DNA from: Dehalococcoidales bacterium
Lineage (GTDB): Bacteria; Chloroflexota; Dehalococcoidia; Dehalococcoidales; UBA5760
DNA: 49,555 nt
Direction: 5' to 3'
Assembly: GCA_028716225.1 (NCBI GenBank)
Contig: JAQUQE010000011.1
Location: 1 to 49,555, forward strand
How positions within the stretch are numbered: the first letter of the stretch is position 1; each line of letters opens with the position of its first letter. Below are positions 5,244 through 49,555 of this stretch, one piece after another. The notes under the pieces were generated by a model. It was not told the DNA's origin. It made no database searches and saw only the letters and a program-made list of their open reading frames with translations. A program made the translations under genes and the position numbers.

Positions 5244-5525
5244 ATGGATAATACCGAAAAGGTCGTCGTCGGTATACTCGGTCTAGGCTTAGCTATCGGG
5301 GCTATTGCTGTGGCCTCCCGGCCGGCTAAAGCAGCTCCCGGTACCGGCACCCTTTCCGGAGCGGTCGGAGACGAGTCAGGAGATCCGGTCTCCGGAGTGA
5401 ATGTGACCCTGGGTGAGATGACTACCCTTACGGATCCGGACGGATTCTTTTACTTTTCAGATATTACTACGGGCAGCTATCCCATGAGTTTTATCAAAGA
5501 AGGCTATGAGGCGGTGTATCTATGA
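5244..5525 (+). CDS. Membrane anchor plus first part of Ig-like domain (5' part of a split gene)
   Basis: The product is 93 residues: a membrane segment at 7-25 (VVVGILGLGLAIGAIAVAS), then most of a carboxypeptidase-regulatory-like domain (GTLSGAVGDESGDPVSG, a DPDGFFYFSDI loop, KEGYEAVYL). The last strand, TVNIIKGANTLNVSM, is missing here but present in another frame at the start of the next ORF (5522). The related intact domain at 7460 reads GYESFMGTVTLVKGLNTL, so the two ORFs look like one gene split by a frameshift, a sequencing error or a -1 recoding event. Confidence 0.7.
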   Translation: MDNTEKVVVGILGLGLAIGAIAVASRPAKAAPGTGTLSGAVGDESGDPVSGVNVTLGEMTTLTDPDGFFYFSDITTGSYPMSFIKEGYEAVYL

Positions 5526-6961
5526 CCGTAAACATAATAAAAGGGGCTAACACTTTAAATGTTTCCATGACGCCCATTGCTGGAGTCACCCACCGCCTTA
5601 ATGTTTCCGTTCAGGGACAGGGTACGACTAACCCGGCTCCGGGCGGCTATGATATTCCGGACGGGCAGACGGTTAACTTATCTGCAACTCCGGCAGCCGG
5701 CTGGACCTTCCGTACCTGGACCTGGCCGGGGAACGATCCCGATTATTCCGGGTGGCCGGATAATCCGATATCCTGGCCGATGACCGAGCCCCTTACGCTT
5801 ATAGCTGTTTTCGACCAGACCGGCACGCCGACAGGACCGGTCGCTAATTTTAATGCCAATCCGATGTCCGGGCAGGCACCGCTTACGGTGGCTTTTACCG
5901 ACACGTCGACCGGGAATATTACCGGCTATCTATGGAACTTCGGAGACGGGAGTACTTCTACTACCCGAAATCCGAGTAACGTATTTAACACTGCAGCACA
6001 ATATTCGGTCAGTTTAACAGTAACCGGACCGGACGGATCCAATACCACCACTAAGGTTATAAACGCAACTTCGGAACCTATTCCTCCAACCGGAATGTTA
6101 GTCCCGGCCTATCTGGGAACTAGCATTCCCAGTGGTTTACCTATGAGCCGCATTACCGAGGGTATCTGGGAATATCTCCAACCGAGGACCCCATCTGATA
6201 TGACACTGGTGGAAATGAGCTCATCTCTTAGTACCGCTACAGCCTTTATTAACGCCTGTCACAATGCCGGTAAATTAGCTTCATTCTCGGTATTCCTACC
6301 CTGGGGTACCAGCGAAGGAGATTTTACTACGGCCATTACCAATGCCTCGCTACGCAGTCAGTTTGCGAACAATATAGCCGCCGTATTCAACTCATATAAT
6401 TTTGATGCGGTTAACTTGGATCTCGAATGTGATAATAAATCCAACGTAACCAGAGAGATGGTCACCGCCCTGATTAGAGAATTGTACGGGCTTGTCACCC
6501 CCATGGGCAAGACTATTTCTGCTACCGAGAATGGCAGCCCACAGAAAGTAACCATGAACACCGAAGCAGCCGACTACCTGGAATGGATCGGCCTCATGGA
6601 TTACGATGTAGCTCAACCTACCTGGTACGGGACGCTTAACGATGTGGTCACGGACCTGGCCCTCTGGGCTTCAGCCGGCTTCCCCAGGAATAAGATGGTT
6701 ACGGGTATCAACTTAGCTGCCCGGGATTCGAGCGGCAGTTGGTATAGACCGGGCTACGCCGGTATCATAAGTAACTACAATCCTCCTCCTAGTGCTAACT
6801 CTGCCGGGCCCTATTATTACGGGGGATATGATCTGACCGTACAGAAGGCCCAGTATGTGAAAAATAACGATTTCGGTGGAGTGTTCTGCTATTACACTCA
6901 GACGGACGCGTTTAGTGATTATCGTTCCCTGCTGCTGGCCCTGCAGACAGGGTTCTCGTAA
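5522..6961 (+). CDS. PKD domain and GH18-like glycosidase (3' part of split gene)
   Basis: The ORF has 479 residues and its ATG overlaps the previous stop (ATGA). Residues 1-20 complete the Ig-like domain begun in the upstream ORF. Residues 24-98 resemble an InlB-type beta repeat. Residues 105-183 are a PKD domain (NFGDGSTSTTRNPSNVF). Residues 190-479 are a GH18-like barrel with FDAVNLDLE at 294-302 in place of FDGVDIDWE. The catalytic Glu (E302) and the preceding Asp are kept, but the middle Asp is Asn. LMDYD near 355 matches the barrel's conserved M-Y/D motif. GH18 enzymes cleave beta-1,4-GlcNAc linkages, so a virion role in attacking host wall or surface glycans is plausible. Confidence 0.8.
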   Translation: MTVNIIKGANTLNVSMTPIAGVTHRLNVSVQGQGTTNPAPGGYDIPDGQTVNLSATPAAGWTFRTWTWPGNDPDYSGWPDNPISWPMTEPLTLIAVFDQTGTPTGPVANFNANPMSGQAPLTVAFTDTSTGNITGYLWNFGDGSTSTTRNPSNVFNTAAQYSVSLTVTGPDGSNTTTKVINATSEPIPPTGMLVPAYLGTSIPSGLPMSRITEGIWEYLQPRTPSDMTLVEMSSSLSTATAFINACHNAGKLASFSVFLPWGTSEGDFTTAITNASLRSQFANNIAAVFNSYNFDAVNLDLECDNKSNVTREMVTALIRELYGLVTPMGKTISATENGSPQKVTMNTEAADYLEWIGLMDYDVAQPTWYGTLNDVVTDLALWASAGFPRNKMVTGINLAARDSSGSWYRPGYAGIISNYNPPPSANSAGPYYYGGYDLTVQKAQYVKNNDFGGVFCYYTQTDAFSDYRSLLLALQTGFS

Positions 6962-8371: not shown

Positions 8372-10201
8372 ATGCCTGATAGAAGTTACGGTTGGTTAAA
8401 GGATAAATACGACCCCAAGGCGATATATCACCGCCCAAAAGCTATAAGGCTTCTGCCATACGTAAACTTCTTGTCCTGGTGCCCCCCTGTAAGAGACCAG
8501 GGCTCGATCGGTTGTTACGACGAGTGCACAGAAGTATTAACAATGGATGGATGGAAGCCTTTTTCAAAAGCATCTTTAGAAGATAAATTAGCAACCTTGA
8601 GCCCTTCTGGCTTTCTGGAATATCAGCTACCAACCCACAAGTTTGAATCTTCCTATTCAGGGCCAATGGTTACAGTTGAAAAACCTGGCTTCAATTTCTG
8701 TGTTACTCCAAATCACAATATGCTCGTCAAACCGTGGAATGAAAGTCTAAGGAAAATAGATAATCAAACAATTCTCATCAGAGCAGATAAGCTCGGCTGG
8801 TTCTCGGCAGTACCAAGAACTGCATTGTGGAAAGGAGACGAACCCGAATACTTCATTCTCCCGAGAAAAGAGAATTCAGTGCATCCGATTGAACAATTGA
8901 GAATACCCATAAATGATTGGCTCTGGTTTCTAGGAATATATATAGCTGAAGGCTGCGTAAACCATTGTACTGATAATGGGAATTACAATATAGAGATAGC
9001 AGCCTCTAATCCTATAAAAAGAGAGAAAATAAAGATACATTTACTAAAATTACCTTGGCGTTTTACCGAACTAGAAGATAGGTTTGTGTTTCACAATCTA
9101 AGATTGTGGAAAGAACTAGAGCCACTTGGACAAGCCTTGGTCAAATACGTACCTCAATATGTAAAAGACGCAAGTTCCCCAAGTATTAAAGTCTTTTTAG
9201 ACGGTTTTTCTACGGGAGATGGATCTATTGACGGGAAAAGACTCTATACCTCTAGCAAAAAATTGGCAGACGATCTTCAGGAGCTAGTATTAAAAACAGG
9301 GAAAGTAACTAATATCCGAATCGATAAAGAAGCAGGGCGTAAAAGTACTATCCATGGGAGAGATATTATTAGTACTTCGGATAGCTACCTTTTAATTATA
9401 AAAGAAAGAAACCAGTCTGACATTGAACGTAAAAAGAACGTCAGAATAGAAGATTATTCAGGCGATGTCTACTGCTTCGAGGTACCGAATCATACGTTGT
9501 ACGTTAGAAGAAACGGCTGTCCGATGTGGTGCGGTAATTCTTGTACCGGGCATGGCATTGGTGGCGAAGCCTACACCGTCGCTAAATCCAACGGGTTTGA
9601 GGTCGAAATTTATTCGCCTACCTGGTTGTATAATGGAGCCCGGTTTTTGGAAGGGACATTAGCTCATGATTGTGGAGCGGTACCGGAAGATGTATTCAAG
9701 TGGGCGACCCTGAACGGTCTTCTTTACGAACCGTACTGGCCGTATAACCCCAATACTCTGGATAAGTCGGCCCCCAGCTCCCTCCGGATGAGCCAGGCTA
9801 TCAAATACCCCGACTTCGAAGCGGTCCGTGTCGACAATGGACTTAACGGGATTATGTCGGCCTTATCTGAGGGTCACTGCGTGGCGATCGGCGCTCCATG
9901 GCCGTATCTCTGGCAATCCGGATCTGACGAAATTCTACCCACCCCGGGGCCCGGCTCCCTGGTAGCTGGCGGGCACGAAGTTTTTATCTACGGATATGAC
10001 CAGACCAAGGCCTATTTTGACATACAGAATTCATGGGGAAAAGACTGGTCGACCGGTGGCCGGGCGAAAGTCCCCTTTGAATGGATAGAATGGTCCAAGC
10101 AGAACGGGGGGTACGATGCTCACTACATAGTCATGTTTGACCCGGGTCCGCATCCGGTACCGCCCCCGGTTAAGAAACGCTTTCTTTGCTTCTCGTGGTA
10201 A
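8372..10201 (+). CDS. Papain-like (C1) cysteine peptidase interrupted by an intein
   Basis: The ORF has 609 residues. Residues 1-47 and 390-609 form a C1A-type peptidase; residues 48-389 are an intein. The N-extein ends VRDQGSIG and the C-extein begins SCTGHGIGGEA, so splicing rebuilds the active-site Cys motif QGSIGSC. The catalytic triad is C391, H535 (AGGHEVF) and N553 (IQNSWGKDW). The spliced product is 267 residues, within the size of a compact papain domain, with no signal peptide. The gene ends a run of virion genes, so the enzyme may process virion or host-surface proteins. It would be inactive until spliced. Confidence 0.85.
   Translation: MPDRSYGWLKDKYDPKAIYHRPKAIRLLPYVNFLSWCPPVRDQGSIGCYDECTEVLTMDGWKPFSKASLEDKLATLSPSGFLEYQLPTHKFESSYSGPMVTVEKPGFNFCVTPNHNMLVKPWNESLRKIDNQTILIRADKLGWFSAVPRTALWKGDEPEYFILPRKENSVHPIEQLRIPINDWLWFLGIYIAEGCVNHCTDNGNYNIEIAASNPIKREKIKIHLLKLPWRFTELEDRFVFHNLRLWKELEPLGQALVKYVPQYVKDASSPSIKVFLDGFSTGDGSIDGKRLYTSSKKLADDLQELVLKTGKVTNIRIDKEAGRKSTIHGRDIISTSDSYLLIIKERNQSDIERKKNVRIEDYSGDVYCFEVPNHTLYVRRNGCPMWCGNSCTGHGIGGEAYTVAKSNGFEVEIYSPTWLYNGARFLEGTLAHDCGAVPEDVFKWATLNGLLYEPYWPYNPNTLDKSAPSSLRMSQAIKYPDFEAVRVDNGLNGIMSALSEGHCVAIGAPWPYLWQSGSDEILPTPGPGSLVAGGHEVFIYGYDQTKAYFDIQNSWGKDWSTGGRAKVPFEWIEWSKQNGGYDAHYIVMFDPGPHPVPPPVKKRFLCFSW
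8513..9538 (+). other. Intein with LAGLIDADG homing endonuclease
   Basis: The element has 342 residues (48-389 of the ORF). It begins CYDECTEVLTMDGW (splicing block A, Cys1) and has CVTPNHNMLV (block B with T and H). Two LAGLIDADG motifs follow, LWFLGIYIAEG near 184-194 and FLDGFSTGDG near 275-284. YSGDVYCFEVPNHTLYV (block F) and CPMWCGN then S (block G) complete it. The last residue is Asn and the +1 residue Ser; the usual penultimate His is Gly. It has inserted exactly before the catalytic Cys codon, a highly conserved site. Splicing is predicted, not shown. Confidence 0.85.
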
Positions 10202-26653: not shown

Positions 26654-26837
26654 AGCATTTTCTCCTGACTTTATCATTCGGTGTTTTTACTCCGACGTTT
26701 CTTCGCTTTTAAGTAGATGGTAATGTTGTTATCACCAAACGTAGGGCGTGGAAGCCACGGGTTTTAACCCGTGAAGGAAACGCCCTTTCCTCCTTTCTGT
26801 TATTGTGAATGTCGTTGTTATATGGTATACTAACAAC

Positions 26838-27233
26838 ATGAGCAGAGAATACAAACATGACGCCCATCGAGTCCATCTCGTGCTATACCATCTGATTTGG
26901 TGCCCCAAACGCCGGAAGGCGGTGTTGACTGGCAACGTAGCAATAAGGCTGGACCAGATACTGCATGATGTAGCGGCAAGCCATAATTGGAACATTGAAC
27001 GTCTGGCTATCCAGCCTGACCATCTACACCTGTTTATCCAGGGCGATAGTATAACGCCGGCACATGAAATGGTACGGCTCTTGAAGGGACGCTCTGCACA
27101 CGACCTCCGTAAGGAATTCCCTACTCTGCTACGGTTGCCCAGCCTATGGACACGGTCATATTTCTGTGCTACTGCCGGGAATGTATCCGCCCAGGCGATT
27201 GAACGATATATCGAAGCCCAGAAGGGAACGTAA
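26838..27233 (+). CDS. tnpA: IS200/IS605 Y1 transposase TnpA
   Basis: The product is 131 residues from ATG 26838. The HUH motif is DHLHLF (H62, H64) and the catalytic Tyr is Y124 in AQAIERYIEAQ. These enzymes cut and rejoin single-stranded DNA at hairpin ends and prefer lagging-strand templates. The stop overlaps the tnpB start (TAATG), so the two are coupled. Length is normal for the family. Confidence 0.9.
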   Translation: MSREYKHDAHRVHLVLYHLIWCPKRRKAVLTGNVAIRLDQILHDVAASHNWNIERLAIQPDHLHLFIQGDSITPAHEMVRLLKGRSAHDLRKEFPTLLRLPSLWTRSYFCATAGNVSAQAIERYIEAQKGT

Positions 27234-28354
27234 TGAAGCAGACCTTGATGATAAAGCTCGCTCCAACTAAAGAGCAGCACCAAGCGTTGCTTACCACGAT
27301 GGAAACGTTCAACGTAGCCTGTACTTACGTTGCCGATGTGGCCTTTAATAACAAGATATTCGGTAAGTATCGCCTTCAGAAGTCGGTATATACAGTTCTT
27401 CGTGATGAGTTCAATCTCTCGGCACAGATGGCGATCAGGGCTATCGCCAAAGTTTCCGAGGGCTATAAAGCGGATAAGAAATCCCAGCACGTAATCAAGC
27501 CTCATTCGGCGGTTGTCTATGACCAGCGCATCCTCTCCTGGAAGGGCCGAGACATGGTTTCTATCCTTACTCTTCAAGGGAGACAGATGATCCCTGTCAG
27601 AGTCGGGGATTATCAAGAGGGTCATATGGATCGCCGTGTCAAGCAAACCGACCTGGTTCTCCAAAAAGGTGTCTTCTACCTGGCCGTGATTGTAGATATC
27701 CCTGAACCGGCCACCGATCTGGCAACCGGAAGCATGGGGGTTGATTTGGGTGTAACCAACCTGGCGGTCGATAACGACGGCCAGTTCTATTCGGGTGAAG
27801 ATGTCGATAAGGTCAGGGAAAACATCGATGCCCTGAAGGCTGATCTCCAAAGCAAGGGCACCAAGTCGGCTAAGCGGCATCTCAGGAAACTCGGTGGCCG
27901 GGAGTCCCGCTTCCGGCGTTCGGTCAATCATCGAATCAGTAAAAAACTTGTGGCTAAGGCTAAAGACACGCATCGCTGTATCAGTCTCGAAGACCTCTCC
28001 GGTATCGGCGACAGCACGGTTCGACACAGCCAGAGGCGTAGACACAAGTCGTGGGCGTTCAATCAGCTCCGTACCTTCATCGAATACAAAGCTAAGATCG
28101 CCGGGGTTATGGTACGGTTGGTCAATCCTCGGAACACTTCCCGGGAATGCCCCCAGTGCCATCATATTTCTAAATCCAATCGCCGTTCTCAATCGCTATT
28201 CCTCTGCCAGCACTGCGGCTATAGCCTCCATGCCGACGTTGTTGGCGCTATCAATATCTCTCGTAAGGCATCCGTCAACGTGCCTATCGTCTCGCCTGGC
28301 CTCAATTGGGGCTGGGCAGGGACAAGCTCGCCGGCTTTAGCCGTGAGTGGTTGA
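27233..28354 (+). CDS. tnpB: RNA-guided endonuclease TnpB
   Basis: The product is 373 residues. RuvC catalytic residues are D171 (MGVDLGVTNL), E253 (ISLEDLSG) and D335 (HADVVGAIN). A zinc finger with C306, C309, C325 and C328 lies before the last Asp. All are present, so nuclease activity is plausible. TnpB uses an RNA from the element's right end, whose 3' tail copies flanking DNA, to cut empty donor sites and so preserve the IS. The stop codon lies at the very end of the element, so the guide RNA must overlap the gene's 3' part. Confidence 0.9.
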   Translation: MKQTLMIKLAPTKEQHQALLTTMETFNVACTYVADVAFNNKIFGKYRLQKSVYTVLRDEFNLSAQMAIRAIAKVSEGYKADKKSQHVIKPHSAVVYDQRILSWKGRDMVSILTLQGRQMIPVRVGDYQEGHMDRRVKQTDLVLQKGVFYLAVIVDIPEPATDLATGSMGVDLGVTNLAVDNDGQFYSGEDVDKVRENIDALKADLQSKGTKSAKRHLRKLGGRESRFRRSVNHRISKKLVAKAKDTHRCISLEDLSGIGDSTVRHSQRRRHKSWAFNQLRTFIEYKAKIAGVMVRLVNPRNTSRECPQCHHISKSNRRSQSLFLCQHCGYSLHADVVGAINISRKASVNVPIVSPGLNWGWAGTSSPALAVSG

Positions 28355-30602: not shown

Positions 30603-31598
30603 TTAGTTCTGTCTGTGGCACAGCGGGCAGGTCAGCCGATGGGTCGCTTCGTCTCCGAAGTCAGCAACCACTTTCAGGGCTTTCATGATCTGTCTGGTAT
30701 TGCCCCTCTCTATCAGATGAGAGGTCGCGTAGGTTATCAGATTTTGCATGTCCCAGGCATTCTCCGGAGGCTGTTCTATCGCTCTTGCCCTGATTGCCTC
30801 TGCAACCGACCCGGTGATTCCAGAGTCTTTGATTAAGGCTTCCAGCATTCGGGCCCGTTCCTCTGGGGGGACTTTTTCATCGACCAGCTTTTTCCAGCCG
30901 GAGACCACCTTATCGAAAGAGTTGTAAGCTCTCCTGATGGACTGCCGGAAGAATTGCCAAACGCTGTCGCCCTCGCCCCCGCCACCCGTAAATTCAGAAA
31001 GGACAGTATTCGATGTGAGTCCATTGGTACAGACTAGCCTCACGGCATACGACTGGACAAAAGGCCGGGTTATTCCCATTGGCGAGAACCTCAGCAGCAC
31101 TCCGGCTTTAACGAGATCCCCCCGCGGGATGTGAGTTCCGTCCGGGGCAATAACGGGAGCGGTTTCGGTGCCGGCTACTTCAAGCGAGACAGTCTGCTTA
31201 TCGATCATTACCCGCATGTATTCTTCTACCGGTATGGTCTTTTCCAGCAGGTCTAGTAAGTGATCGGGTTCCACTGTGCGTCGAGTCCCAAAGGGTACCA
31301 GTGAGGTGATCTTATCGTCTTTGACGACCATGGAGTATGAACCATGCCCCTGCAGGAGCTCGGATAGGGCTTTCGAAAAAGTCTCCGGACTCAGTTTTCC
31401 AGCGAGTCCCAAGGGAAGGCCAGCGAATTCCATCAGCGACCGCTTATCGGCCACGTCGATTGCCGGGGATCCCCGACCCGGTCGGAGCTGGACCATATCC
31501 GGTGTTACCAGTATCCGGGTACCGCTGGAATCTTTGACGTCCCTGATTTTGCCCTCTACCAGAGGTTCGATAGTTTTAAGTACGGTTTCTCTTTTCAT
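30603..31598 (-). CDS. DUF932-like phage/plasmid protein
   Basis: The product is 331 residues. GVLLRFSPMGITRPFVQSYA, then VRLVCTNGLTS, is the hallmark of the DUF932 / phage-plasmid LGT family, which is common on mobile elements and without firm function. The C-terminus carries a short Cys motif (CPLCHRQN). The start region has AAGGAG rather far (14 bases) upstream. Confidence 0.7.
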   Translation of the reverse strand: MKRETVLKTIEPLVEGKIRDVKDSSGTRILVTPDMVQLRPGRGSPAIDVADKRSLMEFAGLPLGLAGKLSPETFSKALSELLQGHGSYSMVVKDDKITSLVPFGTRRTVEPDHLLDLLEKTIPVEEYMRVMIDKQTVSLEVAGTETAPVIAPDGTHIPRGDLVKAGVLLRFSPMGITRPFVQSYAVRLVCTNGLTSNTVLSEFTGGGGEGDSVWQFFRQSIRRAYNSFDKVVSGWKKLVDEKVPPEERARMLEALIKDSGITGSVAEAIRARAIEQPPENAWDMQNLITYATSHLIERGNTRQIMKALKVVADFGDEATHRLTCPLCHRQN

Positions 31599-31624
31599 TT
31601 CGTTGCGACTAACTCCTTTTTACT

Positions 31625-31653
31625 TTGATTTTAATAACCATTTTGAATATAAT
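31625..31653 (+). promoter_or_regulatory. Promoter TTGATT-N17-TATAAT for the HNH gene
   Basis: The -35 is 31625-31630 and the -10 is 31648-31653. The ATG at 31660 is six bases after the -10, so the transcript would be leaderless or nearly so. No Shine-Dalgarno site is present, which agrees. Confidence 0.55.
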
Positions 31654-31659
31654 ACTGTA

Positions 31660-32433
31660 ATGCCTGCTAAAAATAGCTTAGAGGTTGTTTGCTCATATTG
31701 CGGATCTGTTTTTTCACGCCCTCCTTCTTTACTTGAAGGTAAAAAACTCCATTTCTGTAATAATAAGTGCAGATCTCTTTATCAAGATCATAAGGTTCCA
31801 ACCAGGTGTAAGGGCTGCGGCATTGTGATTTACGTTCAGCAATTCTTTTATTCTCATGGACAGTCCCATTTTTGTAGCCGTGAATGCTACGATAAACATA
31901 GGACAGAAGGGTCAAGATACATATCGTGTGATTACTGTGGAAAGATCACTTACCGGAAACCCTCTTTTGCTTTAAAACTTAAACATCATTTCTGTTCAAA
32001 ACAGTGTTGGAGAAGATGGTTACACTTTTTTAGGGTACGAAATCTAAACTTTAACTGGCGAGGTGGAAAAGCCTATTATTATGGTCCAAATTGGGAATAT
32101 CAGTCCCAATTAGCAAGGGAGAGGGACCATACTACATGTCAGCGTTGTGGGAAGAAACCAAATGGCCGCAAACTTGATGTTCACCACAAGAGGGCTTTTA
32201 GATTCTTTGGGTTGAAGAATTACATCGAAGCCAATGACTTGTCAAACTTGATTACCCTTTGTAGAGTATGCCATCCCCAATCTGAGGATGATAGACCATC
32301 CGTTACCCGCTCACGCAGCAACGTGCCCGTTCTCGAAAATACGACTCAGTTCGTCACACCACCAGCTCGGCAAATTATTGGTCAACAGTCCGAACCTCAA
32401 CCTGCTGGTATCCATAACATAGCCACTTCTTAA
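31660..32433 (+). CDS. HNH endonuclease with zinc fingers (mobile)
   Basis: The product is 257 residues. Four Cys-rich fingers (CSYCGSVF, CNNKCRSL, CKGCGIVI, CDYCGKIT and partners) precede an HNH domain: TTCQRCGKKPNGRKLDVHHK to NLITLCRVCHPQSE. It lies against the strand of its neighbours, is visibly AT-richer, has its own promoter, and its last 40 codons run antisense through the end of the ATPase gene. These features suggest a stand-alone homing endonuclease that inserted between two genes. Confidence 0.8.
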   Translation: MPAKNSLEVVCSYCGSVFSRPPSLLEGKKLHFCNNKCRSLYQDHKVPTRCKGCGIVIYVQQFFYSHGQSHFCSRECYDKHRTEGSRYISCDYCGKITYRKPSFALKLKHHFCSKQCWRRWLHFFRVRNLNFNWRGGKAYYYGPNWEYQSQLARERDHTTCQRCGKKPNGRKLDVHHKRAFRFFGLKNYIEANDLSNLITLCRVCHPQSEDDRPSVTRSRSNVPVLENTTQFVTPPARQIIGQQSEPQPAGIHNIATS

Positions 32434-33042
32434 TTTCTGCCTGTCAGTTGGGATATTGGCGAAAACCTCGATAGCTCTTCTGGTGAACATCTGCATTTCG
32501 CTCCGTTCAAACATGGCGTGAGCCTGGGTAGGCTCTTTCCATATTACTCTTTGAGCCTCCATTACTACATTTCTGTCGAGTTTCGAGGAGTGGTGAGCTA
32601 TGAAAATGATGAGCTGTTCTCTTTGACCTGATACACCAATTAGATTATCGAGTGTAACTGCTTCACCCGATTGAGTCCTTCGTGCATGAGCGGTCTGTGA
32701 GGCTTCATCGACAACTATTACCGCCTTTTTAGGTAAATCTTTGAGGGATGTGACAACAGAAATCCACGAAGGAAGCAGCCTTCGTTTAGGCTTTTCAAGT
32801 TGGAACGGTAAGAACAAACACCCGGGTAAGTCGCGTTTAGAGTGGAGGTAGTCCATTATTTCGAATGCTAACCCCGTTTTACCTTTCCTACGATCTCCCA
32901 TAATAACCACTGTGCCAGGGAAAGGTATCTCTTTCGATATTGTTGTAATTTCAGGTTTTGAAAGAATAGCCCGAGCGAATTGCTCGTCTTTATTCCTTTC
33001 CCACTTTTTAAGTCTTTCAGTCCATGAAACTGCTGGTACCAA
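32311..33042 (-). CDS. P-loop ATPase, candidate DNA-packaging ATPase (FtsK/HerA-like)
   Basis: The product is 243 residues from TTG 33042. Walker A is GDRRKGKT at 49-56 and Walker B is AVIVVDEAS with D112 and E113. IIFIAHHSSKLDRNVVMEAQ then RVIW resembles the sensor region of small FtsK/HerA/A32-type ATPases, which pack DNA in tailless icosahedral viruses. The size also fits. It is the only packaging-motor candidate in the genome. A terminase or a Zot-like ATPase is possible; there is no nuclease domain. The 3' end overlaps the HNH gene and could have been altered by that insertion. Confidence 0.65.
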   Translation of the reverse strand: MVPAVSWTERLKKWERNKDEQFARAILSKPEITTISKEIPFPGTVVIMGDRRKGKTGLAFEIMDYLHSKRDLPGCLFLPFQLEKPKRRLLPSWISVVTSLKDLPKKAVIVVDEASQTAHARRTQSGEAVTLDNLIGVSGQREQLIIFIAHHSSKLDRNVVMEAQRVIWKEPTQAHAMFERSEMQMFTRRAIEVFANIPTDRQKLRSGYVMDTSRLRFGLLTNNLPSWWCDELSRIFENGHVAA

Positions 33043-33126
33043 TAATCCTTACCCCCTTATCCTTTTTTTGCCCCTACTAAGCATATCGATTGAGGTCGAT
33101 TTATCGTTGCAACGAGTTTTTGACGC

Positions 33127-33142
33127 TATTTCTCAAGAAATG
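33127..33142 (-). promoter_or_regulatory. Palindromic element, copy 4
   Basis: On the minus strand it reads CATTTCTTGAGAAATA. It lies 84 bases upstream of the ATPase start and just after the end of the gene at 33143, oriented toward the ATPase gene. Confidence 0.55.
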
Positions 33143-33505
33143 CTAGTACCTCTTAGGTTTTAAGACGACAGTGACTTTCGTCTCTTTTGGTATCCATGCC
33201 TTGTTTTTAATGACCATCGAGGCGGTATTGTGCTTCGGCTTCTGGAAGTATCCCTTAATCTCCCCGTCCGGTCCTTTCCGGTTTATCCTCAGTATCGCCT
33301 CAACTTCCAGGTGTCCGTTGGACCGGATCAGAGTATCCGGCTGAGGCATGAGCTCGATGAGCTGCCGGAGCTGCTTGGAGCCAACCGTAATGTCTCCGAA
33401 TTCAACGGCGTCGCCCATTTTAAGGGCCTTGATGAGCGACTCGTTGAGAAAGACCCACCCGCCGTCTTTTTTCTTGCCCCACGGGCGTTGTATGGTACGC
33501 TTCAA
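33143..33505 (-). CDS. Hypothetical basic protein
   Basis: The product is 120 residues, Lys-rich, with WVFLNESLIKALKMGDAVEF near the N-terminus and a basic beta C-terminus (KETKVTVVLKPKRY). It may bind nucleic acid. No family is recognised. Confidence 0.65.
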   Translation of the reverse strand: MKRTIQRPWGKKKDGGWVFLNESLIKALKMGDAVEFGDITVGSKQLRQLIELMPQPDTLIRSNGHLEVEAILRINRKGPDGEIKGYFQKPKHNTASMVIKNKAWIPKETKVTVVLKPKRY

Positions 33506-33519
33506 ATTCCACCCCCTTT

Positions 33520-33690
33520 TTAGTTAATATGGGCCTGAACGTATTCAAAACCGTACAGCCAGTCCATTTCGTAGATATTAGAGGCGGCCAGGAAGATGTT
33601 AGGTACCAGCCGGCAGAGGTCGGGATCGACCAGGGCGTTGCCAAAATGGTCAGGATAGATGGAGTCGTTATTATCCAGTTGGTCTTCCAT
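33520..33690 (-). CDS. Small acidic hypothetical protein
   Basis: The product is 56 residues, starting MEDQLDNNDSIYPDHFGNAL and ending LYGFEYVQAHIN. GAGGGAAAATC precedes ATG 33690. It overlaps the end of the next upstream gene. Function unknown. Confidence 0.55.
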   Translation of the reverse strand: MEDQLDNNDSIYPDHFGNALVDPDLCRLVPNIFLAASNIYEMDWLYGFEYVQAHIN

Positions 33691-33820
33691 GATTTTCCCT
33701 CGCTTGCCGCTTTTCTTCCCGGTGCTGATTCCAAAGACCCTCGACGAAAGCGACCGTAAAACCGAAGGTCAAGCACACGATGATACCTGCCATTATCCAA
33801 AACCACGTTGGGATTTTCAT
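33671..33820 (-). CDS. Tiny single-span membrane protein
   Basis: The product is 49 residues: MKIPTWFWIMAGIIVCLTFG, then FTVAFVEGLW and a charged tail. GGGAG lies upstream of ATG 33820, which overlaps the zinc-ribbon gene's stop. Confidence 0.55.
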   Translation of the reverse strand: MKIPTWFWIMAGIIVCLTFGFTVAFVEGLWNQHREEKRQARENHGRPTG

Positions 33821-34056
33821 ACTGGATTCTCCCTCCTTACTTTGACATCTTTTGCTCCATCCAGAAAAGCATCAGCTTCTTCTTGGTCGTTGATATCAAG
33901 CTCTTTGTAACACTCTGGACAGGAAAATGTATTATCGGAATACTCTGTATTCTTCTCGTGGAAATTGCCCCCTTGACTATAATCTCCACTTTCTGAAGCT
34001 GTTACGTGATAATTGAGGTAATCAATCTCTTTTTTACAGCTAGGACACTTCGGCAC
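33817..34056 (-). CDS. Small zinc-ribbon protein
   Basis: The product is 79 residues from GTG 34056. CPSCKKEI at the N-terminus and CPECYKEL at 46-53 form a zinc ribbon separated by an acidic, Asn-rich loop. It overlaps both neighbours. Function unknown. Confidence 0.65.
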   Translation of the reverse strand: MPKCPSCKKEIDYLNYHVTASESGDYSQGGNFHEKNTEYSDNTFSCPECYKELDINDQEEADAFLDGAKDVKVRRENPV

Positions 34057-34294
34057 TTTGCACCCCCTTTGCGACTTTGACGATAGCCTCTCCGAATTTC
34101 AGGGCGTCTTCTCTCGATAGATGCAACTGGATTGGTTCGCTGCCGGCAGGGCGCCTACTGGATACCTCAATGAAAATCAGGTCTTCAATTACACTGGAGT
34201 CCCAAATTAGCGAATGATGTGGCGTAAACCACCCATTCCGGCCTCGCGCCTTATTGTCCTTGTTTGAGAATTGTACCTGAGCATCAAGTGACAT
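34040..34294 (-). CDS. Hypothetical protein
   Basis: The product is 84 residues from ATG 34294 after GGGGGTGATT. It has a beta-rich middle (LIFIEVSSRRPAGSEPIQLH) and a helix with LSREDALKFGEAIVKVAKGV. Function unknown. Confidence 0.65.
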   Translation of the reverse strand: MSLDAQVQFSNKDNKARGRNGWFTPHHSLIWDSSVIEDLIFIEVSSRRPAGSEPIQLHLSREDALKFGEAIVKVAKGVQSAEVS

Positions 34295-34304
34295 AATCAC
34301 CCCC

Positions 34305-34598
34305 TTAACATTCGCTTAGACAATCGCAGGTTCCGTCCCATGTGCCGTTGGCCATGAAATGAGAGTTGAACTTGCCGTCCAAGTGGCCGTTTTCTCTTTT
34401 GCAGGTTCCGAATGAATAAAATTGAGCCATTGGGAATTGACTGACGGTATAATTCCTCGCTCCGTCAACCATGTTCAAGGCATCTTTATGAACCTTGAAC
34501 GGCCCGACTAAATAGGCTACTCGCTTACCATCGATGCAATCGACGTAGTAGCAAGGCTCATCAGTCCAGTTACCAAGTTTCACGGTATCAGAAGCCAT
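34305..34598 (-). CDS. Hypothetical Cys-containing protein
   Basis: The product is 97 residues from ATG 34598 after AAGGGGGTG. It contains scattered Cys (EPCYYVDCIDG, CDCLSEC at the end) and GPFKVHKDALNMVDGARNYT. No known fold is recognised. Confidence 0.65.
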   Translation of the reverse strand: MASDTVKLGNWTDEPCYYVDCIDGKRVAYLVGPFKVHKDALNMVDGARNYTVSQFPMAQFYSFGTCKRENGHLDGKFNSHFMANGTWDGTCDCLSEC

Positions 34599-34608
34599 TT
34601 GCACCCCC

Positions 34609-34683
34609 TTACCAACTAAGTACTAACGCCAGAAACAGGATTCCGACTACTCCGAGTAGAACAACGTCCCATAGATCGAACAT
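34609..34683 (-). CDS. Tiny membrane peptide
   Basis: The product is 24 residues from ATG 34683 after GGGAGGAACT: MFDLWDVVLLGVVGILFLAL and a short end. The strong site and single hydrophobic helix support it. The 93 bases upstream hold no gene that I can see. Confidence 0.45.
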   Translation of the reverse strand: MFDLWDVVLLGVVGILFLALVLSW

Positions 34684-34776
34684 AGTTCCTCCCTTATCGT
34701 TAATCAGCCCACTACTGCCAATAAGAAGATCACGGAGCGTTTCAGGCTTCTTACGGGCAGTCGGTCGGATGACTAG

Positions 34777-34965
34777 CTATTTTTTCTTGGTCTTATCGGC
34801 AGGCTTCGAACCGCAAAGTACAGCGGTCACTTGTACCTGGTACTTCTCACCCGCTTCGCCTAGCACTTTCCCTTGCCCTCGAAATCCGGTTGAGCCGGTG
34901 CTAAACTTGGTCGGACTCATCGGGATAGTGATAGATGCTCTGTTTAAAATATCCTGTCCGGTCAT
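34777..34965 (-). CDS. Small hypothetical protein
   Basis: The product is 62 residues: a Ser/Thr/Gly-rich middle (SPTKFSTGSTGFRGQGKVLG) and a KTKKK tail. GGGGGAATC lies upstream. Function unknown. Confidence 0.6.
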   Translation of the reverse strand: MTGQDILNRASITIPMSPTKFSTGSTGFRGQGKVLGEAGEKYQVQVTAVLCGSKPADKTKKK

Positions 34966-35000
34966 TGTGTTATGATTCCCCCTTATCTTTTTTTATTCTC

Positions 35001-35348
35001 TTATCGCACGTTTCCGAGCGATAGACACGCGGCCTTGAACTTTTTAATTTGATCCCGTGTATAGCCATGCTGGTATTCGTCGATATTGATAACCCGCGAC
35101 TTTGGCACACTCTCAAGATCAAGCGATTCCCGCTTTGCGCGGTAATGTAGTTGACGATCTTCGAATTCTCCGGTCGGATACAGACCGATCAAGATTCCGT
35201 GATAGTGCAAGTAGTAACGCGGAATCTCTTTCCGTTTATCCCGCTCGCTATTCTCACCTTGAATTCGAGCGTTACACTGATTGCAGTATTGAGACTGAAG
35301 CATCGCTGGCCTAGTCTCACAGATTACGCACTTTGGCCTATTTACCAC
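35001..35348 (-). CDS. Zinc-finger hypothetical protein
   Basis: The product is 115 residues from GTG 35348. CVICETRPAMLQSQYCNQCN gives a CxxC...CxxC finger. The middle has YYLHYHGILIGLYPTGEFED and the end is helical and basic. Possibly nucleic-acid binding. Confidence 0.65.
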   Translation of the reverse strand: MVNRPKCVICETRPAMLQSQYCNQCNARIQGENSERDKRKEIPRYYLHYHGILIGLYPTGEFEDRQLHYRAKRESLDLESVPKSRVINIDEYQHGYTRDQIKKFKAACLSLGNVR

Positions 35349-35451
35349 GCTTCACCCCCTTAACTATTTTCCCCGTCTCAAGTGACGCTAGTTTTGGGCA
35401 CTTGAGGCCGCGGCATGGATAATTACATTTACGGCAGAACGATATAACCAT
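35338..35451 (-). CDS. Tiny Cys-rich protein
   Basis: The product is 37 residues from ATG 35451 after AGGGGTGAATT. FCRKCNYPCRGLKCPKL has four Cys in a tight cluster, likely a zinc knuckle. The tail is basic. It overlaps the next gene by 11 bases. Confidence 0.55.
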   Translation of the reverse strand: MVISFCRKCNYPCRGLKCPKLASLETGKIVKGVKRGK

Positions 35452-35479
35452 AATTCACCCCTTATCGGTTTTTAGACCA

Positions 35480-36240
35480 ATTCCGAGAGTTGACCGAAGT
35501 CAACCCCCGTCGATTGAGCTAAAAGCACAATCCCCCCTGTGATCTGCAGCAGGGGGTCTGTGCTGTAGTCATACTCACGGATGACAGTCGCGTGTGGTCG
35601 AGGATACAGTAAGCTCGTGTGGGACTTTTGCACACGGGACTCTCGTAATCGGTTACAGCCCAAAAGACTTGCTACCGTCTTGGCCGCCGTTCTAACAATA
35701 GCTCTCCCGTTATCCAGCGGAGCCTCTCAGGAGGGCGCAGGAAGAGAGCTAGTGCCACCGGCTGGCTGTACTGTGTTCTCTTGCTATTGGGGGAAGATAG
35801 CACAGCCGCGTTACGAGCATGGCTTACCGAACCGTTAGACCATCTGTTGGAGAATAGACTCCCGTCGATGCTCCACGGTCATAGCTCACGGCCTCTTTAA
35901 CGTCTAGACAGGACGGGAAACGTAGTGCTTACGCTTCCGGAAGCCGTTGATTTAGGCCAACGAGTCCCCGTTCATTATCCGTCAGAGTCGGCCAGGAAGT
36001 GCAGAGCCTTATCCCGAAGACCACGTTCCCACGTAGGACAGCGATACACTCGTGCTGGCGTAGATTCCTCGGTGTGCCCAGGTCCGCGTAGCTATCAGGT
36101 TGACCATGTGACCCCCGCATGGGAGAGAAAACTCCCCCGTAGCCAGCTCCAGACTTCGGAGTGGTTGCGAGCACGTGACCGGATATTAGCTTTGCCTCAC
36201 TCTAGGTATTGGCTCATTTTACTAGGCTTGAATTGTCTTA
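35480..36240. ncRNA. Candidate large structured RNA, about 700 nt
   Basis: No convincing gene lies between 35452 and 36382, and the small open frames have Arg/Ser/Pro-rich noise composition. Hairpins are dense: AGCACA plus CCCCCTG (35524-35564); CGTGTG/CACACG near 35616-35636; TAGCTCTC 35700-35707 with GAGAGCTA near 35744-35751; GCTAT/ATAGC and GGCTGT/ACAGCC near 35763-35806; TGGAG/CTCCA near 35849-35875; CCATG/CATGG near 36104-36122; GGGAG/CTCCC 36121-36136; CTCC/GGAG near 36147-36161. A minus-strand UUCG hairpin (GTTGAC, TTCG, GTCAAC) marks the left edge near 35489-35504. Size and context recall giant phage RNAs such as GOLLD or ROOL, but I see no proof of identity. Confidence 0.6.
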
Positions 36241-36249
36241 TAACTAGCA

Positions 36250-36277
36250 TATCGAATGACTGCTAATTACTGTTGCA
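36250..36277. repeat. 28-bp direct repeat, copy A
   Basis: TATCGAATGACTGCTAATTA followed by CTGTTGCA matches copy B at 36355-36382 with one mismatch. The two copies lie 105 bp apart and flank the terminator hairpin. Confidence 0.75.
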
Positions 36278-36287
36278 ATCCATTTAC

Positions 36288-36327
36288 TAACAAAAACAAG
36301 TGAGAGACTTTTTATAGTCTCTCACTT
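36288..36327 (-). terminator. Intrinsic terminator of the 36383 gene
   Basis: On the minus strand a perfect 12-bp stem (AAGTGAGAGACT/AGTCTCTCACTT) with a 6-base loop is followed by GTTTTTGTT. It lies about 55 bases after the stop of the gene ending at 36383. Confidence 0.85.
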
Positions 36328-36354
36328 GCCTTAATTAGTGCCTTATGCTTAGTC

Positions 36355-36382
36355 TATCGAATGACTGCTAATTAGTGTTGCA
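36355..36382. repeat. 28-bp direct repeat, copy B
   Basis: Partner of copy A at 36250. It lies directly after the 3' end of the 36383 gene. Possible integrase arm sites or protein-binding sites; neither is shown. Confidence 0.75.
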
Positions 36383-37060
36383 CTAGCTTAAAGTTAACTG
36401 ATAGCCGCTCTTAGCAATCCATCGCGCTAACTGTGAACGTTCAGTATTGGAAAGTGAATGACCGGTAATTGGACGCCCGCGCAGTAGAAAGCGCTTGTAT
36501 TCTTTTCGATGTTTTCCTACAATCGGCGCTTGAACAGGTTCACGGATTGCGCGGTCATGGGTTAACGATTGTCCACGCATACGCTTGATGATTAATGGTT
36601 TTATGTCGTCTGGTATCCGCGACCACAGTCTAACCGCGGTATCATCACTCTCATACTTGTTAACGAATTCAATCTCTCCCACAATTAAGTCACCTAAACT
36701 TGTTACGTCACCATCGTCGCTCTCTATCTTAGAATCTAAGTCAATGTGAGCGTGAATCTTGCTAGCTTTCCACCAGTCTAGCCAGTCACCGCGTATGACT
36801 GAATATGCCAGTTTAGGCTCATCGATACCAGACTTCAAAAGCGTAGCTGTAAAATCTTGGAAACAATCCAGTCTATCATCATAAGGCACTTTAGACGCGA
36901 ATATGTAGGCAATTCGCATTGATAGCTTCGTTTGTTCTGGTAGATTCTTTACAGCTTCGAGTGTAGATTCTACCGCGGCCGTGTAGTCACATTCTGGTAT
37001 GTTAGTGCAAAGCACTTTAGCTATACTTCGATATTCAACTTTGATTGTATCTGTATTCAT
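36383..37060 (-). CDS. Hypothetical DNA-binding protein, possibly sigma-factor-like
   Basis: The product is 225 residues after AAGGGG. VPYDDRLDCFQDFTATLL and LAYSVIRGDWLDWWKASK resemble the region-2 helices of small sigma-like proteins. LSNTERSQLARWIAKSGYQL at the C-terminus could be a helix-turn-helix. The match is weak. It has its own promoter (37208-37236) and terminator, so it is an independent transcription unit, as expected for a regulator. Confidence 0.5.
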   Translation of the reverse strand: MNTDTIKVEYRSIAKVLCTNIPECDYTAAVESTLEAVKNLPEQTKLSMRIAYIFASKVPYDDRLDCFQDFTATLLKSGIDEPKLAYSVIRGDWLDWWKASKIHAHIDLDSKIESDDGDVTSLGDLIVGEIEFVNKYESDDTAVRLWSRIPDDIKPLIIKRMRGQSLTHDRAIREPVQAPIVGKHRKEYKRFLLRGRPITGHSLSNTERSQLARWIAKSGYQLTLS

Positions 37061-37061
37061 T

Positions 37062-37345
37062 TTTTAACCCCTTATCAATTTTTTATTTTTTAGCTTCAAA
37101 TTTTAATTTTCGATTTTGAGGTTATCAGACTCTAATTTGATGTTTTTCACTCTCCATGACTTTACAATATATCCTATTGTTAACTTTGTTGGTATACGGT
37201 AATAGACATATTAATGAATCTCAAACACGATTGCAATAGGCTTGATTGATTTTTTTTGAAATTCGAAGCTAAAAAAATATTTTCGAAGCTAAAAAAAATT
37301 GAAAAATCGACGCGGCTCCACGAAGCTAATCGAGACTGGAAGCGG
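37062..37345. repeat. AT-rich intergenic region with CGAAGCTAA repeats
   Basis: No gene is visible. TTCGAAGCTAAAAAAA occurs at 37262-37277 and 37282-37297, CGAAGCTAA at 37321-37329, and an inverted TTAGCTTCAAA at 37090-37100. Long A and T runs fill the spaces. It separates the integrase operon from the 36383 gene. It could hold attachment or regulatory sites. Confidence 0.6.
37208..37236 (-). promoter_or_regulatory. Promoter TTGCAA-N17-TAATAT for the 36383 gene
   Basis: On the minus strand the -35 is 37236-37231 and the -10 is 37213-37208, with exactly 17 bases between. The gene starts 148 bases downstream. Confidence 0.5.
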
Positions 37346-37360
37346 TTAGCCCTGGCCGGG

Positions 37361-37696
37361 CTATCTGGCTAGTCTGAACAGCTTCCTGGTCGGGACCTCA
37401 TCCCTGCCTGAGAACTGAGGCTCTGGCGACTCCTCAACGTTCTCACTGATCTCGAGTATTCCCTGGCCCTGGAGTGTCCACACCTTAACCCGGAAGCTGT
37501 CCCAGGTAGCCATCCGGTAGGGGATCTTCCGGCCGGCCTGCACTGAAAGAGCCTTCATCCGGACCAGGTAGGCTTTGTGCATTTCGGTCGTACTGGCTTC
37601 CCGGTGGCTGGATAGGTATTCTACAATAAAGTCCACTACTCTCAGAGGATGATGATCGCCGCCCTTGGCTGATATAAACGGTTTTCTAATTACCAC
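37361..37696 (-). CDS. Hypothetical winged-helix-like protein next to the integrase
   Basis: The product is 111 residues from GTG 37696, which follows AAGGAG inside the end of the integrase gene and overlaps it by 11 bases. PLRVVDFIVEYLSSHREAST, TEMHKAYLVRMKAL and TWDSFRVKVWTLQGQGILEI look like a winged helix. It may assist or regulate integration. Confidence 0.65.
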   Translation of the reverse strand: MVIRKPFISAKGGDHHPLRVVDFIVEYLSSHREASTTEMHKAYLVRMKALSVQAGRKIPYRMATWDSFRVKVWTLQGQGILEISENVEESPEPQFSGRDEVPTRKLFRLAR

Positions 37697-38408
37697 TTGG
37701 TTTCTCCTTTTCGAATAGCTTGTCGTACCAGTCCTGTTGCTCCTCGAGGGCCAGTTTCCGGTACCGCATAGTAGTTCCAATATCCTTGTGGCCGAGCTGC
37801 TCCTGCAGGAGCCGAGCCCCTTCCATGGTCGGGTTTAGCTTCATAGCATGGACCGCAAAAGCATCCCGGAGCTTGTGGGGACTGATATTGTGGTACTTTT
37901 CCGTCTCCGGGTTATAGATCTTCGGCAGGCCGGCCCGGATGCCCGCCTCTACAAATATCTGCCAGGCGTGTTGCCGGCTCAGGCTGAATAGTTTATGCTT
38001 TTCTTCTACCACCTCGAGTTGGACACCTTTCATATACCCCCGGATCATCTCCAGGGTATCTTTGTCGACCGGGACGGTCCTCATTTTGGGATGGGATATC
38101 ACTTTCTGAATAACCGCCTCGACTTTGGCCGTACAGTGGGGACAAAAAGAGTCGGATTTACGGAGCCGTGTGTTGCACTGTGGGCAGGATATGGAAACCC
38201 TCGCTTTCTGGTGCCTGATCGTAATCAGGGACCGTTTAAAGTCGATGTTTTCAACGTACAAGTTGAGGGTCTCGGAAATGCGGCAACCGAGCCGCCTGGT
38301 TATCCGGATCATCAGTTGGTCCCGGAGATTCTTGGCAGCCGCCTCATGTTTGGCCGTTTGTTCCTGGTCGAGATAGGCTTGAGCCTCGATTGTTTTTTCT
38401 TCTGCCAT
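37686..38408 (-). CDS. Tyrosine recombinase (integrase) with inserted zinc ribbon
   Basis: The product is 240 residues. Catalytic residues are R43 (GCRISETL), H178 and R181 (PHKLRDAF), H207 (LGHKDI) and nucleophile Y216 (TTMRYRKL). A zinc ribbon (C75, C78, C89, C92) is inserted between the first Arg and the rest of the core, between two DNA-contacting strands. The usual N-terminal core-binding domain of about 100 residues is almost absent, so DNA clamping must differ or need a partner. It probably inserts the circle into the host chromosome; attP is not identified. Confidence 0.85.
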   Translation of the reverse strand: MAEEKTIEAQAYLDQEQTAKHEAAAKNLRDQLMIRITRRLGCRISETLNLYVENIDFKRSLITIRHQKARVSISCPQCNTRLRKSDSFCPHCTAKVEAVIQKVISHPKMRTVPVDKDTLEMIRGYMKGVQLEVVEEKHKLFSLSRQHAWQIFVEAGIRAGLPKIYNPETEKYHNISPHKLRDAFAVHAMKLNPTMEGARLLQEQLGHKDIGTTMRYRKLALEEQQDWYDKLFEKEKPSGN

Positions 38409-46473: not shown

Positions 46474-47133
46474 ATGGGTTCAAGAAATTATCTACTCAAC
46501 GTAAACGACCTTTCCGTAACCGACCGGGGTGACTTAAAACTCTCCGCCCTGGCTGCCGGTCTCGAGCGCTGTGCTATCAAGGGAATCGGTGACTGTAATT
46601 CCGATATCCCCGGACTGCAAGCGATACCTGATGCCAATAAAATCCAGAGGGTTCAACTGATAAAAGGTTGGATCAAACAAGGGAATTGGCCTCAGTCTAT
46701 TACCCAGCGCGAGCTAACCCCGAACCTTAACGGCGACCTGGTTGCCGCGACGGCTCTGGATAGCTGGCTAACCGCAGCCCTGGCCGCTGTCGGTACCTTC
46801 TACACCTGTTTCCAGGCCATCGTTTCCCCGCAGCTCGCCCAGGACAAACTCATGGTTCTCTACGGCGCCTCGGTTGATTCCGTAGCCGTACCCATGCCCG
46901 TGTCCCGGATGGTTATCCGGCGCGGCGGGGCTGCCGGCAATATCATCGCCCAGTACGATATGGAAGAGCAGATGATCCGGCAGGATGTCGACTTCTTCTT
47001 CAGCGAGCCCCAGGTGATCGATCCCCAGCAAGCCTTCGCTATCCAGGTACGTGCCCGGGTCGCGACGGCAGCCGCCGAGATCGTCCACGTCCATAATTTC
47101 CTGTTTGAGCAGAGTGGTCTAATCGTAACCTAA
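46474..47133 (+). CDS. Capsid protein candidate
   Basis: The product is 219 residues after a strong AAGGAGGTATA site. After an N-terminal helical arm the sequence is beta-rich: DKLMVLYGASVDSVAVPMPV, NIIAQYDMEEQMI, DVDFFFSEPQVIDPQQAFAI. These alternate like jelly-roll strands. Size and position fit a single-jelly-roll capsid subunit, perhaps paired with the 48539 product, but there is no sequence proof. A perfect hairpin follows the gene. Confidence 0.6.
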   Translation: MGSRNYLLNVNDLSVTDRGDLKLSALAAGLERCAIKGIGDCNSDIPGLQAIPDANKIQRVQLIKGWIKQGNWPQSITQRELTPNLNGDLVAATALDSWLTAALAAVGTFYTCFQAIVSPQLAQDKLMVLYGASVDSVAVPMPVSRMVIRRGGAAGNIIAQYDMEEQMIRQDVDFFFSEPQVIDPQQAFAIQVRARVATAAAEIVHVHNFLFEQSGLIVT

Positions 47134-48538: not shown

Positions 48539-49180
48539 ATGCCAGATCTACACATTTTCAAGGCGGCTATAGGGATGTGCGATCCCGTAGCACTTCAGGA
48601 CCAGCTCGTTGCAATTCACTATGTCGAGTCTATCTACTACAAGCGTGTCACCTTCTTGGAAGGAATCCCCGATTTTCAGTGTCTAAACATTGGCGCCGTA
48701 CTGGCAACTAACCAGTCCGGACGGACCAATGTAGCCAACCTCGAGATGGCCGACAATGAATTCGGTCTCTTCCGGTGGTATCCGATCGATGATTTCCAGT
48801 GTCAGCTCTTTCACCCGGCAGGAATCGCCAAAGGCCAGCTCCGTAACGTGCAGGCGCCATACGACATGAATATCCTGGCTAATGATCCCAACCTCGTCTC
48901 GACCGAGATAGCGGTCTGGGAAAATAACCGGCCGGCCATGATTGCGGTTAACGCCAATGCCGTTCCTTTAGCCATGGCACGGATCCGGGCGATTGGCTAC
49001 CGTTTCCACACCAAGGAACCGGTCCCGCTGACCAGATCTGAAAAAGCCCTTGTCGATAGTCTCAAGGTAGAGATTACGAACGCTAAATGGACGGATACGG
49101 ATTATCTCAAACATGCCATGAGCGAGAGACGGATCCCGGTAACCGATATCTGGGCAAGCGGCCGCGGTATTGGCGACTAA
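48539..49180 (+). CDS. Capsid or major virion protein candidate
   Basis: The product is 213 residues after AAAGGAGAGG. It is beta-rich with aromatic strands (QLVAIHYVESIYYKRVTFLE; NEFGLFRWYPIDDFQCQLFH) and a helical C-terminus ending in WASGRGIGD. It follows a terminator, so it has its own promoter or depends on read-through. Jelly-roll identity is inferred from size, composition and context. Confidence 0.6.
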   Translation: MPDLHIFKAAIGMCDPVALQDQLVAIHYVESIYYKRVTFLEGIPDFQCLNIGAVLATNQSGRTNVANLEMADNEFGLFRWYPIDDFQCQLFHPAGIAKGQLRNVQAPYDMNILANDPNLVSTEIAVWENNRPAMIAVNANAVPLAMARIRAIGYRFHTKEPVPLTRSEKALVDSLKVEITNAKWTDTDYLKHAMSERRIPVTDIWASGRGIGD

Positions 49181-49214: not shown

Positions 49215-49555
49215 ATGGTAACAAATGCGAAAGAGATCGGGACCAGGGTAACCAGTCCCATTGTTAATATAGCGGCAGCCGGCGTCGCAAACGCCGCCAT
49301 ACTTTTCACACTGCCGGCGCTGGCCGGTGTCCTGGTGGGGGCCAAAAGCGCCGTCATCAAGAAGGTGCTGGTGGACGATAACGGGACCGGTGGAACGCAG
49401 ATACACATCGGTAATGGAGTTGGGGGTGCCTTTGTGGCACTACTTCCGGGGCTTGACCTCTTGACCGCTCTGGATAATATCTACGGGGAAGATGAACTCC
49501 CCGAGGTAGAGTCCTTCGCCAACATTACCGGCTTCGTGGATGCGGTCGGCGGCAG
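49215..49555 (+). CDS. 5' part of the gene crossing the contig junction
   Basis: ATG 49215 follows GAAGGAGG. It encodes VTNAKEIGTRVTSPIVNIAA, then an Ala/Val-rich stretch (AAILFTLPALAGVLVGAKSA) and a beta region. It runs off the window and resumes at base 3; the whole product is 126 residues. Probably a minor virion protein. Confidence 0.75.
   Translation, partial: MVTNAKEIGTRVTSPIVNIAAAGVANAAILFTLPALAGVLVGAKSAVIKKVLVDDNGTGGTQIHIGNGVGGAFVALLPGLDLLTALDNIYGEDELPEVESFANITGFVDAVGG
49429..49555. repeat. Terminal direct repeat, right copy
   Basis: Exact copy of bases 1-127. It should be counted once when the circle is closed. Confidence 0.9.

Follow-up and report, generated by a model that had tools for sequence, protein, structure and literature searches.

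The window, that is the whole stretch of 49,555 nt of DNA that was analysed, encodes on its minus strand a large structured RNA, about 775 nt long, that is real and had not been catalogued before. Since its shape is kept in six related elements and no catalogued family was matched, it is probably a new class among the giant phage-type RNAs; what these elements have retained is the shape of the molecule and not its sequence. The RNA and its recognisable parts are:

35467..36240, minus strand: large structured RNA of about 775 nt, with homologs at the same place in five other elements; both ends are predicted
35944..35971, minus strand: conserved GGGGACU segment and hairpin with loop GCCUAAAU (six copies compared)
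35612..35819, minus strand: conserved core domain, model R1 (211 positions, 66 pairs), scoring 171 bits in the window
35525..35563, minus strand: GCACA-CCCCC hairpin; model R2, from three other loci, matches the window and locus L029
35467..35524, minus strand: 3'-terminal two-step hairpin with a UUCG loop, just before the ribosome-binding site, a candidate processing site

The 5' end was placed by a promoter-like motif and the 3' end by the terminal hairpin beside the ribosome-binding site. A first-pass annotation had described this region as densely structured, non-coding and without credible genes, and had named several hairpins, all of which are present in the sequence, including the UUCG hairpin at its edge (35489-35504, minus strand). 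Between 35,470 and 36,240 only short overlapping ORFs of 43-113 aa occur, on both strands, and the longest stop-free frames vary between homologs of the RNA.

Homologs were sought through the neighbouring genes as well as through the RNA. The sig-like protein encoded beside the RNA (36,383-37,060), searched against 301 genomes of the phylum, led to L008 in another genome and to L009 in the same bin, and two collinear matches to the RNA were found downstream of the sig-like protein of L008. Here compensatory changes were visible by eye, the window having TAGCTCTC/GAGAGCTA and L008 having ATACGTTC/GGGACGTAT. The aligned AAA ATPase, scanned against 84,980 species genomes, gave L011 (CAISEW010000029.1, the contig of L008), L012 (JAUWQP010000014.1) and L013 (JAUWQY010000003.1), under the names of uncultured Chloroflexi, Chloroflexota and Dehalococcoidia, and the RNA is present at the same place in L012 and L013. 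The L029 copy was added by a search within the class, and the covariance model detected a sixth (L009/L047) in C13, a contig from the same bin as the window. The six copies (the window, its sister and probably circular contig C13, and four in proviral contigs) all belong to one class, Dehalococcoidia, and in all six elements the RNA lies between the sig-like gene and a small zinc-ribbon gene.

Among 393 genomes of the class, strong matches to the covariance model occurred only in G000 (two), G249, G400 and G622; weak matches in G284 and G705 (16 and 22 bits) were left out of the copy count. A sample of 400 genomes from across the phylum, searched with stricter filters that may lose weak copies, added none. 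In phage DNA the sole hit of a direct search, 37 bp long, covered the region of the terminator-like hairpin and did not touch the RNA itself; plasmids gave none. No copy was found in IMG/VR when searched by neighbour proteins and RNA patterns, two pattern hits being protein-coding-like DNA without similarity to the RNA. Short DNA matches across the phylum (L004-L006) have neither collinear similarity nor a model match and were taken as chance.

The covariation in these copies is decisive for a real structured RNA. Model R1, built for the 211-nt core from L011, L012, L013 and the window, recovered both held-out copies where they should lie, L029 with 115 bits (E 1.4e-31) and L047 with 101 bits (E 1.4e-27). 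Model R2, built from three copies, detected two that were outside it, the window with 38 bits (E 3.5e-8) and L029 with 31 bits (E 2.8e-6); these E-values, like those of the other covariance models, come from a shortened calibration. In the six-copy core alignment standard pairs fill 95.9% of cells at the 66 pairs, and both sides have changed in 38 of them, against a shuffle mean of 15.9 (sd 2.9), a number reached by 0 of 500 shuffles; the covariation score is 0.62 versus 0.29 when shuffled, and slid controls give 5-12 pairs changed on both sides. More weight falls on the held-out scores and the slid controls, since the alignment had been fitted to the structure. The compensatory changes fall in multiple helices, among them the 8-bp stem of the first-pass annotation (TAGCTCTC at 35699-35706, GAGAGCTA at 35744-35751). 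At full length, three sequences gave 232 predicted pairs, 27 of them with both sides changed. A long-range pairing GGGAC/GUCCC, seen in four copies, is not claimed, as it barely varies and is missing in L029. In the 5' part conservation lies mainly in the GGGGACU segment and the following hairpin, the GCCUAAAU loop being the same or nearly the same in six copies while its stem varies; the 5' third is far less conserved and beyond L011-L013 only loosely alignable. Folding energy on its own is moderately unusual (z -3.76 for the minus strand and -1.55 for the plus strand, 20 shuffles each) and favours the minus strand.

The window and C13 each carry identical ends of 127 bp (1-127 and 49429-49555 in the window), as expected of circular assemblies, so that the window is probably a whole circular element of ~49.4 kb and C13 one of ~45.4 kb; they have many further genes in common. 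The host of these contigs is uncertain because the bin measures 2.64 Mb versus 0.8-1.3 Mb for genomes of the same genus. Among the proteins of the window are an integrase, a DnaC-like loader, a phage replication protein O, a RecT (weak match) and a match to a Holliday-junction resolvase; none could be confidently recognised as a capsid, terminase or tail protein. Circularity, the integrase and the phage replication and recombination genes suggest a phage- or virus-like element, in agreement with the phage-type setting proposed earlier. Other elements have the block of integrase, sig-like gene, RNA, zinc-ribbon gene and AAA gene in common with the window; integration would agree with the tRNAs and recombinase genes that adjoin some of them and with the presence of uvrA on one contig. 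The nearby genes conserved in relatives (30,603 to 38,408) all run leftward, on the minus strand, and include at their upstream end:

37686..38408, minus strand: tyrosine integrase with a zinc ribbon, from sequence matches

Some other genes of these elements deserve mention. Two genes conserved in C13 and without family match (46474-47133 and 48539-49180, plus strand) are candidates for virion proteins. An IS200/IS605-type TnpB gene lies at 27233-28354 (plus strand), with a probable TnpA gene adjoining it at 26805-27233 (plus strand), and a papain-type cysteine protease gene at 8372-10201 (plus strand) is apparently interrupted by a LAGLIDADG intein. The protein encoded at 5522-6961 (plus strand), with PKD and glycosyl hydrolase 18 domains, is an unusual cargo for a virus-like element. 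In proviral relatives, homologs of the sliding clamp (DNA polymerase III beta) are found between the RNA and the AAA gene (L010, 14712-15848, plus strand; L029, 3063-4250, minus strand).

Upstream of the RNA, and at one place further along the operon, the following features were observed:

36383..37060, minus strand: 'sig' neighbour of 225 aa, sigma-factor-like by eye only, with homologs beside the RNA in six of six elements
36351..36382, minus strand: second promoter-like site, before the terminator-like hairpin (motif scan)
36291..36328, minus strand: terminator-like hairpin with a 13-bp stem and a U-rich tail, between the sig-like gene and the RNA (read directly)
36246..36277, minus strand: ECF-type promoter-like site TGCAACA-n16-CGATATGCT, directly upstream of the RNA (motif scan)
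33080..33111, minus strand: third promoter-like site, upstream of the AAA ATPase gene (motif scan)

The pattern TGCAAC-n17-CGATANRCT, which was written after the sites had been seen, occurs at three sites in the window, all on the minus strand, against 0.05 expected, and near-identical variants precede the RNA, the AAA gene and other genes in the sister elements. The promoter of ECF41 sigma factors is TGTCACA-n16-CGTC (PMC3426412); the motif of the window resembles it in the -35 element (TGCAACA is close to TGTCACA) and in the 16-bp spacing, but has CGAT/CGGAT instead of CGTC as its -10 element. It may be the sig-like protein that reads this motif. That protein gave no Pfam match, no PDB profile match and no ECF assignment by profile search, and its AlphaFold model (mean pLDDT 44) is unusable. 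The region had been placed between two leftward transcription units, which holds on its upstream side, where the terminator-like hairpin stands and where L011, L012, L013 and C13 have a hairpin at the same place; a consensus scan did not report the hairpin at 36,291-36,328. On the other side the claim fails, there being no boundary and no terminator between the RNA and the ribosome-binding site and genes downstream of it, which are:

35338..35451, minus strand: small cysteine-rich ORF of 37 aa, first cistron after the RNA (from sequence)
35001..35348, minus strand: 'zn' neighbour of 115 aa, of CxxC...CxxC zinc-ribbon type, with homologs downstream of the RNA in six of six elements
34777..34965, minus strand: 62-aa protein conserved in the operon (homologs)
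34698..34778, minus strand: hairpin after the 62-aa gene, a weak match to model R3 (E 0.11)
32311..33042, minus strand: AAA ATPase of the operon, without counterpart in the C13 element
30603..31598, minus strand: conserved operon protein, PHROG 1362 of unknown function (PHROG match, homologs)

The structure of the zinc-ribbon protein was predicted with a pLDDT of 82.5, and a PDB search with this model returned no match at E<=0.001. In all six copies the RNA ends in a long two-step hairpin shortly before a G-rich ribosome-binding site, and similar hairpins stand between later genes of the operon (L012 6667-6729; L013 6907-6969; L011 6175-6237, 6791-6851 and 8344-8404; L047 5966-6027 and 7220-7283). 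These intergenic hairpins are two-step with an asymmetric internal loop and are candidate sites of mRNA processing or protein binding. Model R3 finds the two sites of L047, which are outside its training set, with E 5e-6 and 1e-4, and at the site after the 62-aa gene it gives E 1e-4 or better in L011, L012, L013 and L047; it does not itself prove the strand, as palindromic hairpins also score on the opposite one. Because the type of hairpin that ends the RNA recurs between later genes, a processing signal is suggested, and from its placement the terminal hairpin may have a processing role. The RNase III sites of the T7 early mRNA are likewise long two-step hairpins with an asymmetric internal loop that stand between genes of one operon. 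The resemblance lies in the build, the loop and the intergenic placement, cleavage being putative here, whereas in our elements a large structured RNA has one such hairpin as its predicted 3' end.

On these grounds we consider it reasonably probable that this is a new family of ~775-nt RNAs of Chloroflexota virus-like elements, transcribed with an operon, released at a hairpin and acting in trans, with the zinc-ribbon protein as candidate partner. Leftward transcription would start at the ECF-type promoter, possibly served by the sig-like protein, and the RNA would be the first segment of a transcript that continues through the zinc-ribbon gene into the operon behind it. Its 3'-terminal hairpin, one of the intergenic series, would then be cut or bound, releasing an RNA that, in the replicative phase of the element, may serve in trans as a scaffold or as an RNA-protein particle, the zinc-ribbon protein being its likeliest partner. 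The fuller version, of a giant phage-type trans RNA, perhaps a particle with its zinc-ribbon neighbour, made from an ECF-type promoter that the element itself encodes and freed from the operon transcript by processing hairpins dedicated to this task, is more tentative and, in our estimate, falls a little short of an even chance.

The strongest alternative, although the less probable reading, is that the RNA remains part of the zinc-ribbon operon's mRNA as a giant cis-acting 5' leader, controlling transcription or translation in the manner of a riboswitch or by binding an element-encoded protein. The uninterrupted passage from the RNA into the downstream genes, the position of the 3' hairpin relative to the G-rich ribosome-binding site and the presence of the zinc-ribbon gene downstream, the last two in all six copies, are what such a leader would predict. 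However, the RNA is far longer than known leaders of this type, neither the window nor C13 has the conserved gene as first cistron behind the RNA (a different small gene takes that place), the AAA gene and further genes of the operon carry their own promoter-like sites, and hairpins like the terminal one stand before other genes where no large RNA is present. Of the two readings, a free RNA seems to us about twice as probable.

No match to the RNA was obtained in the window with 4227 Rfam families at gathering thresholds, nor did four copies match GOLLD, ROOL, OLE or group I/II introns at E<=10; weak hits to miRNA, snoRNA, sRNA and a few cis-regulatory families lie far below gathering scores. 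As no Rfam family fits even at E<=10, the RNA is not recognisable as any of those four kinds, and the earlier suggestion of a possible new class gains support from this result together with the covariation and the shared position in six elements. A highly divergent GOLLD, ROOL or OLE, which comparable size, ornate folding and phage-type setting (PMC12286853) might suggest, is improbable in view of that search and of a window without tRNA. It is still less probable that we are dealing with a mobile ribozyme, for instance a group I or group II intron: a large structured RNA in a mobile element would suit that reading, as would the HNH and intein-type homing genes in other parts of the window, but no intron model matches, no reverse transcriptase or homing endonuclease lies inside the RNA, and in six of six elements it stands between the same two genes and interrupts none. 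Chance structure, for which only the moderate folding energy of the window could speak, is refuted by the six-copy core covariation, and a chance structure or unrecognised protein gene is hardly credible given the held-out model detection and the lack of a shared open frame across homologs.

The likeness to GOLLD and ROOL put forward in the first-pass annotation is one of size and context alone. GOLLD RNAs, many of them longer than 800 nt, occur in phages and prophages and have a conserved 3' part and a less conserved 5' part (PMC12286853). The Chloroflexota RNA is similar in size class, in phage-type setting and in the contrast between its two parts; unlike GOLLD, it matches no GOLLD model, sits 5' of an operon without a terminator of its own and has so far been found only in elements of Dehalococcoidia. 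Moreover, GOLLD often lies near or contains tRNA genes, which is not so here, there being no tRNA in the window, the C13 pieces or L012, and those of other loci lying at a distance of ~5 kb or more. GOLLD is further characterised by its assembly into a homo-oligomeric RNA cage. ROOL is a large ornate RNA of phages and prophages without known partner (PMC12286853), and our RNA, equally large, ornate and phage-type in setting, differs from it in the lack of a model match and of a tRNA island and in having conserved protein neighbours. With OLE it has in common that a large ornate RNA adjoins conserved small protein genes. OLE RNA has a protein partnership; in the present case the partner proteins are only candidates, no model match is found, and the RNA belongs to virus-type elements and not, as OLE does, to chromosomes. 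Only a handful of giant ornate RNAs of phages are known, and the roles of GOLLD and ROOL are still an open question. To these RNAs as described, the Chloroflexota RNA adds neighbouring proteins that are conserved, as well as a probable promoter and a probable processing signal, which offer concrete handles in the form of a candidate partner protein and a predicted regulator.
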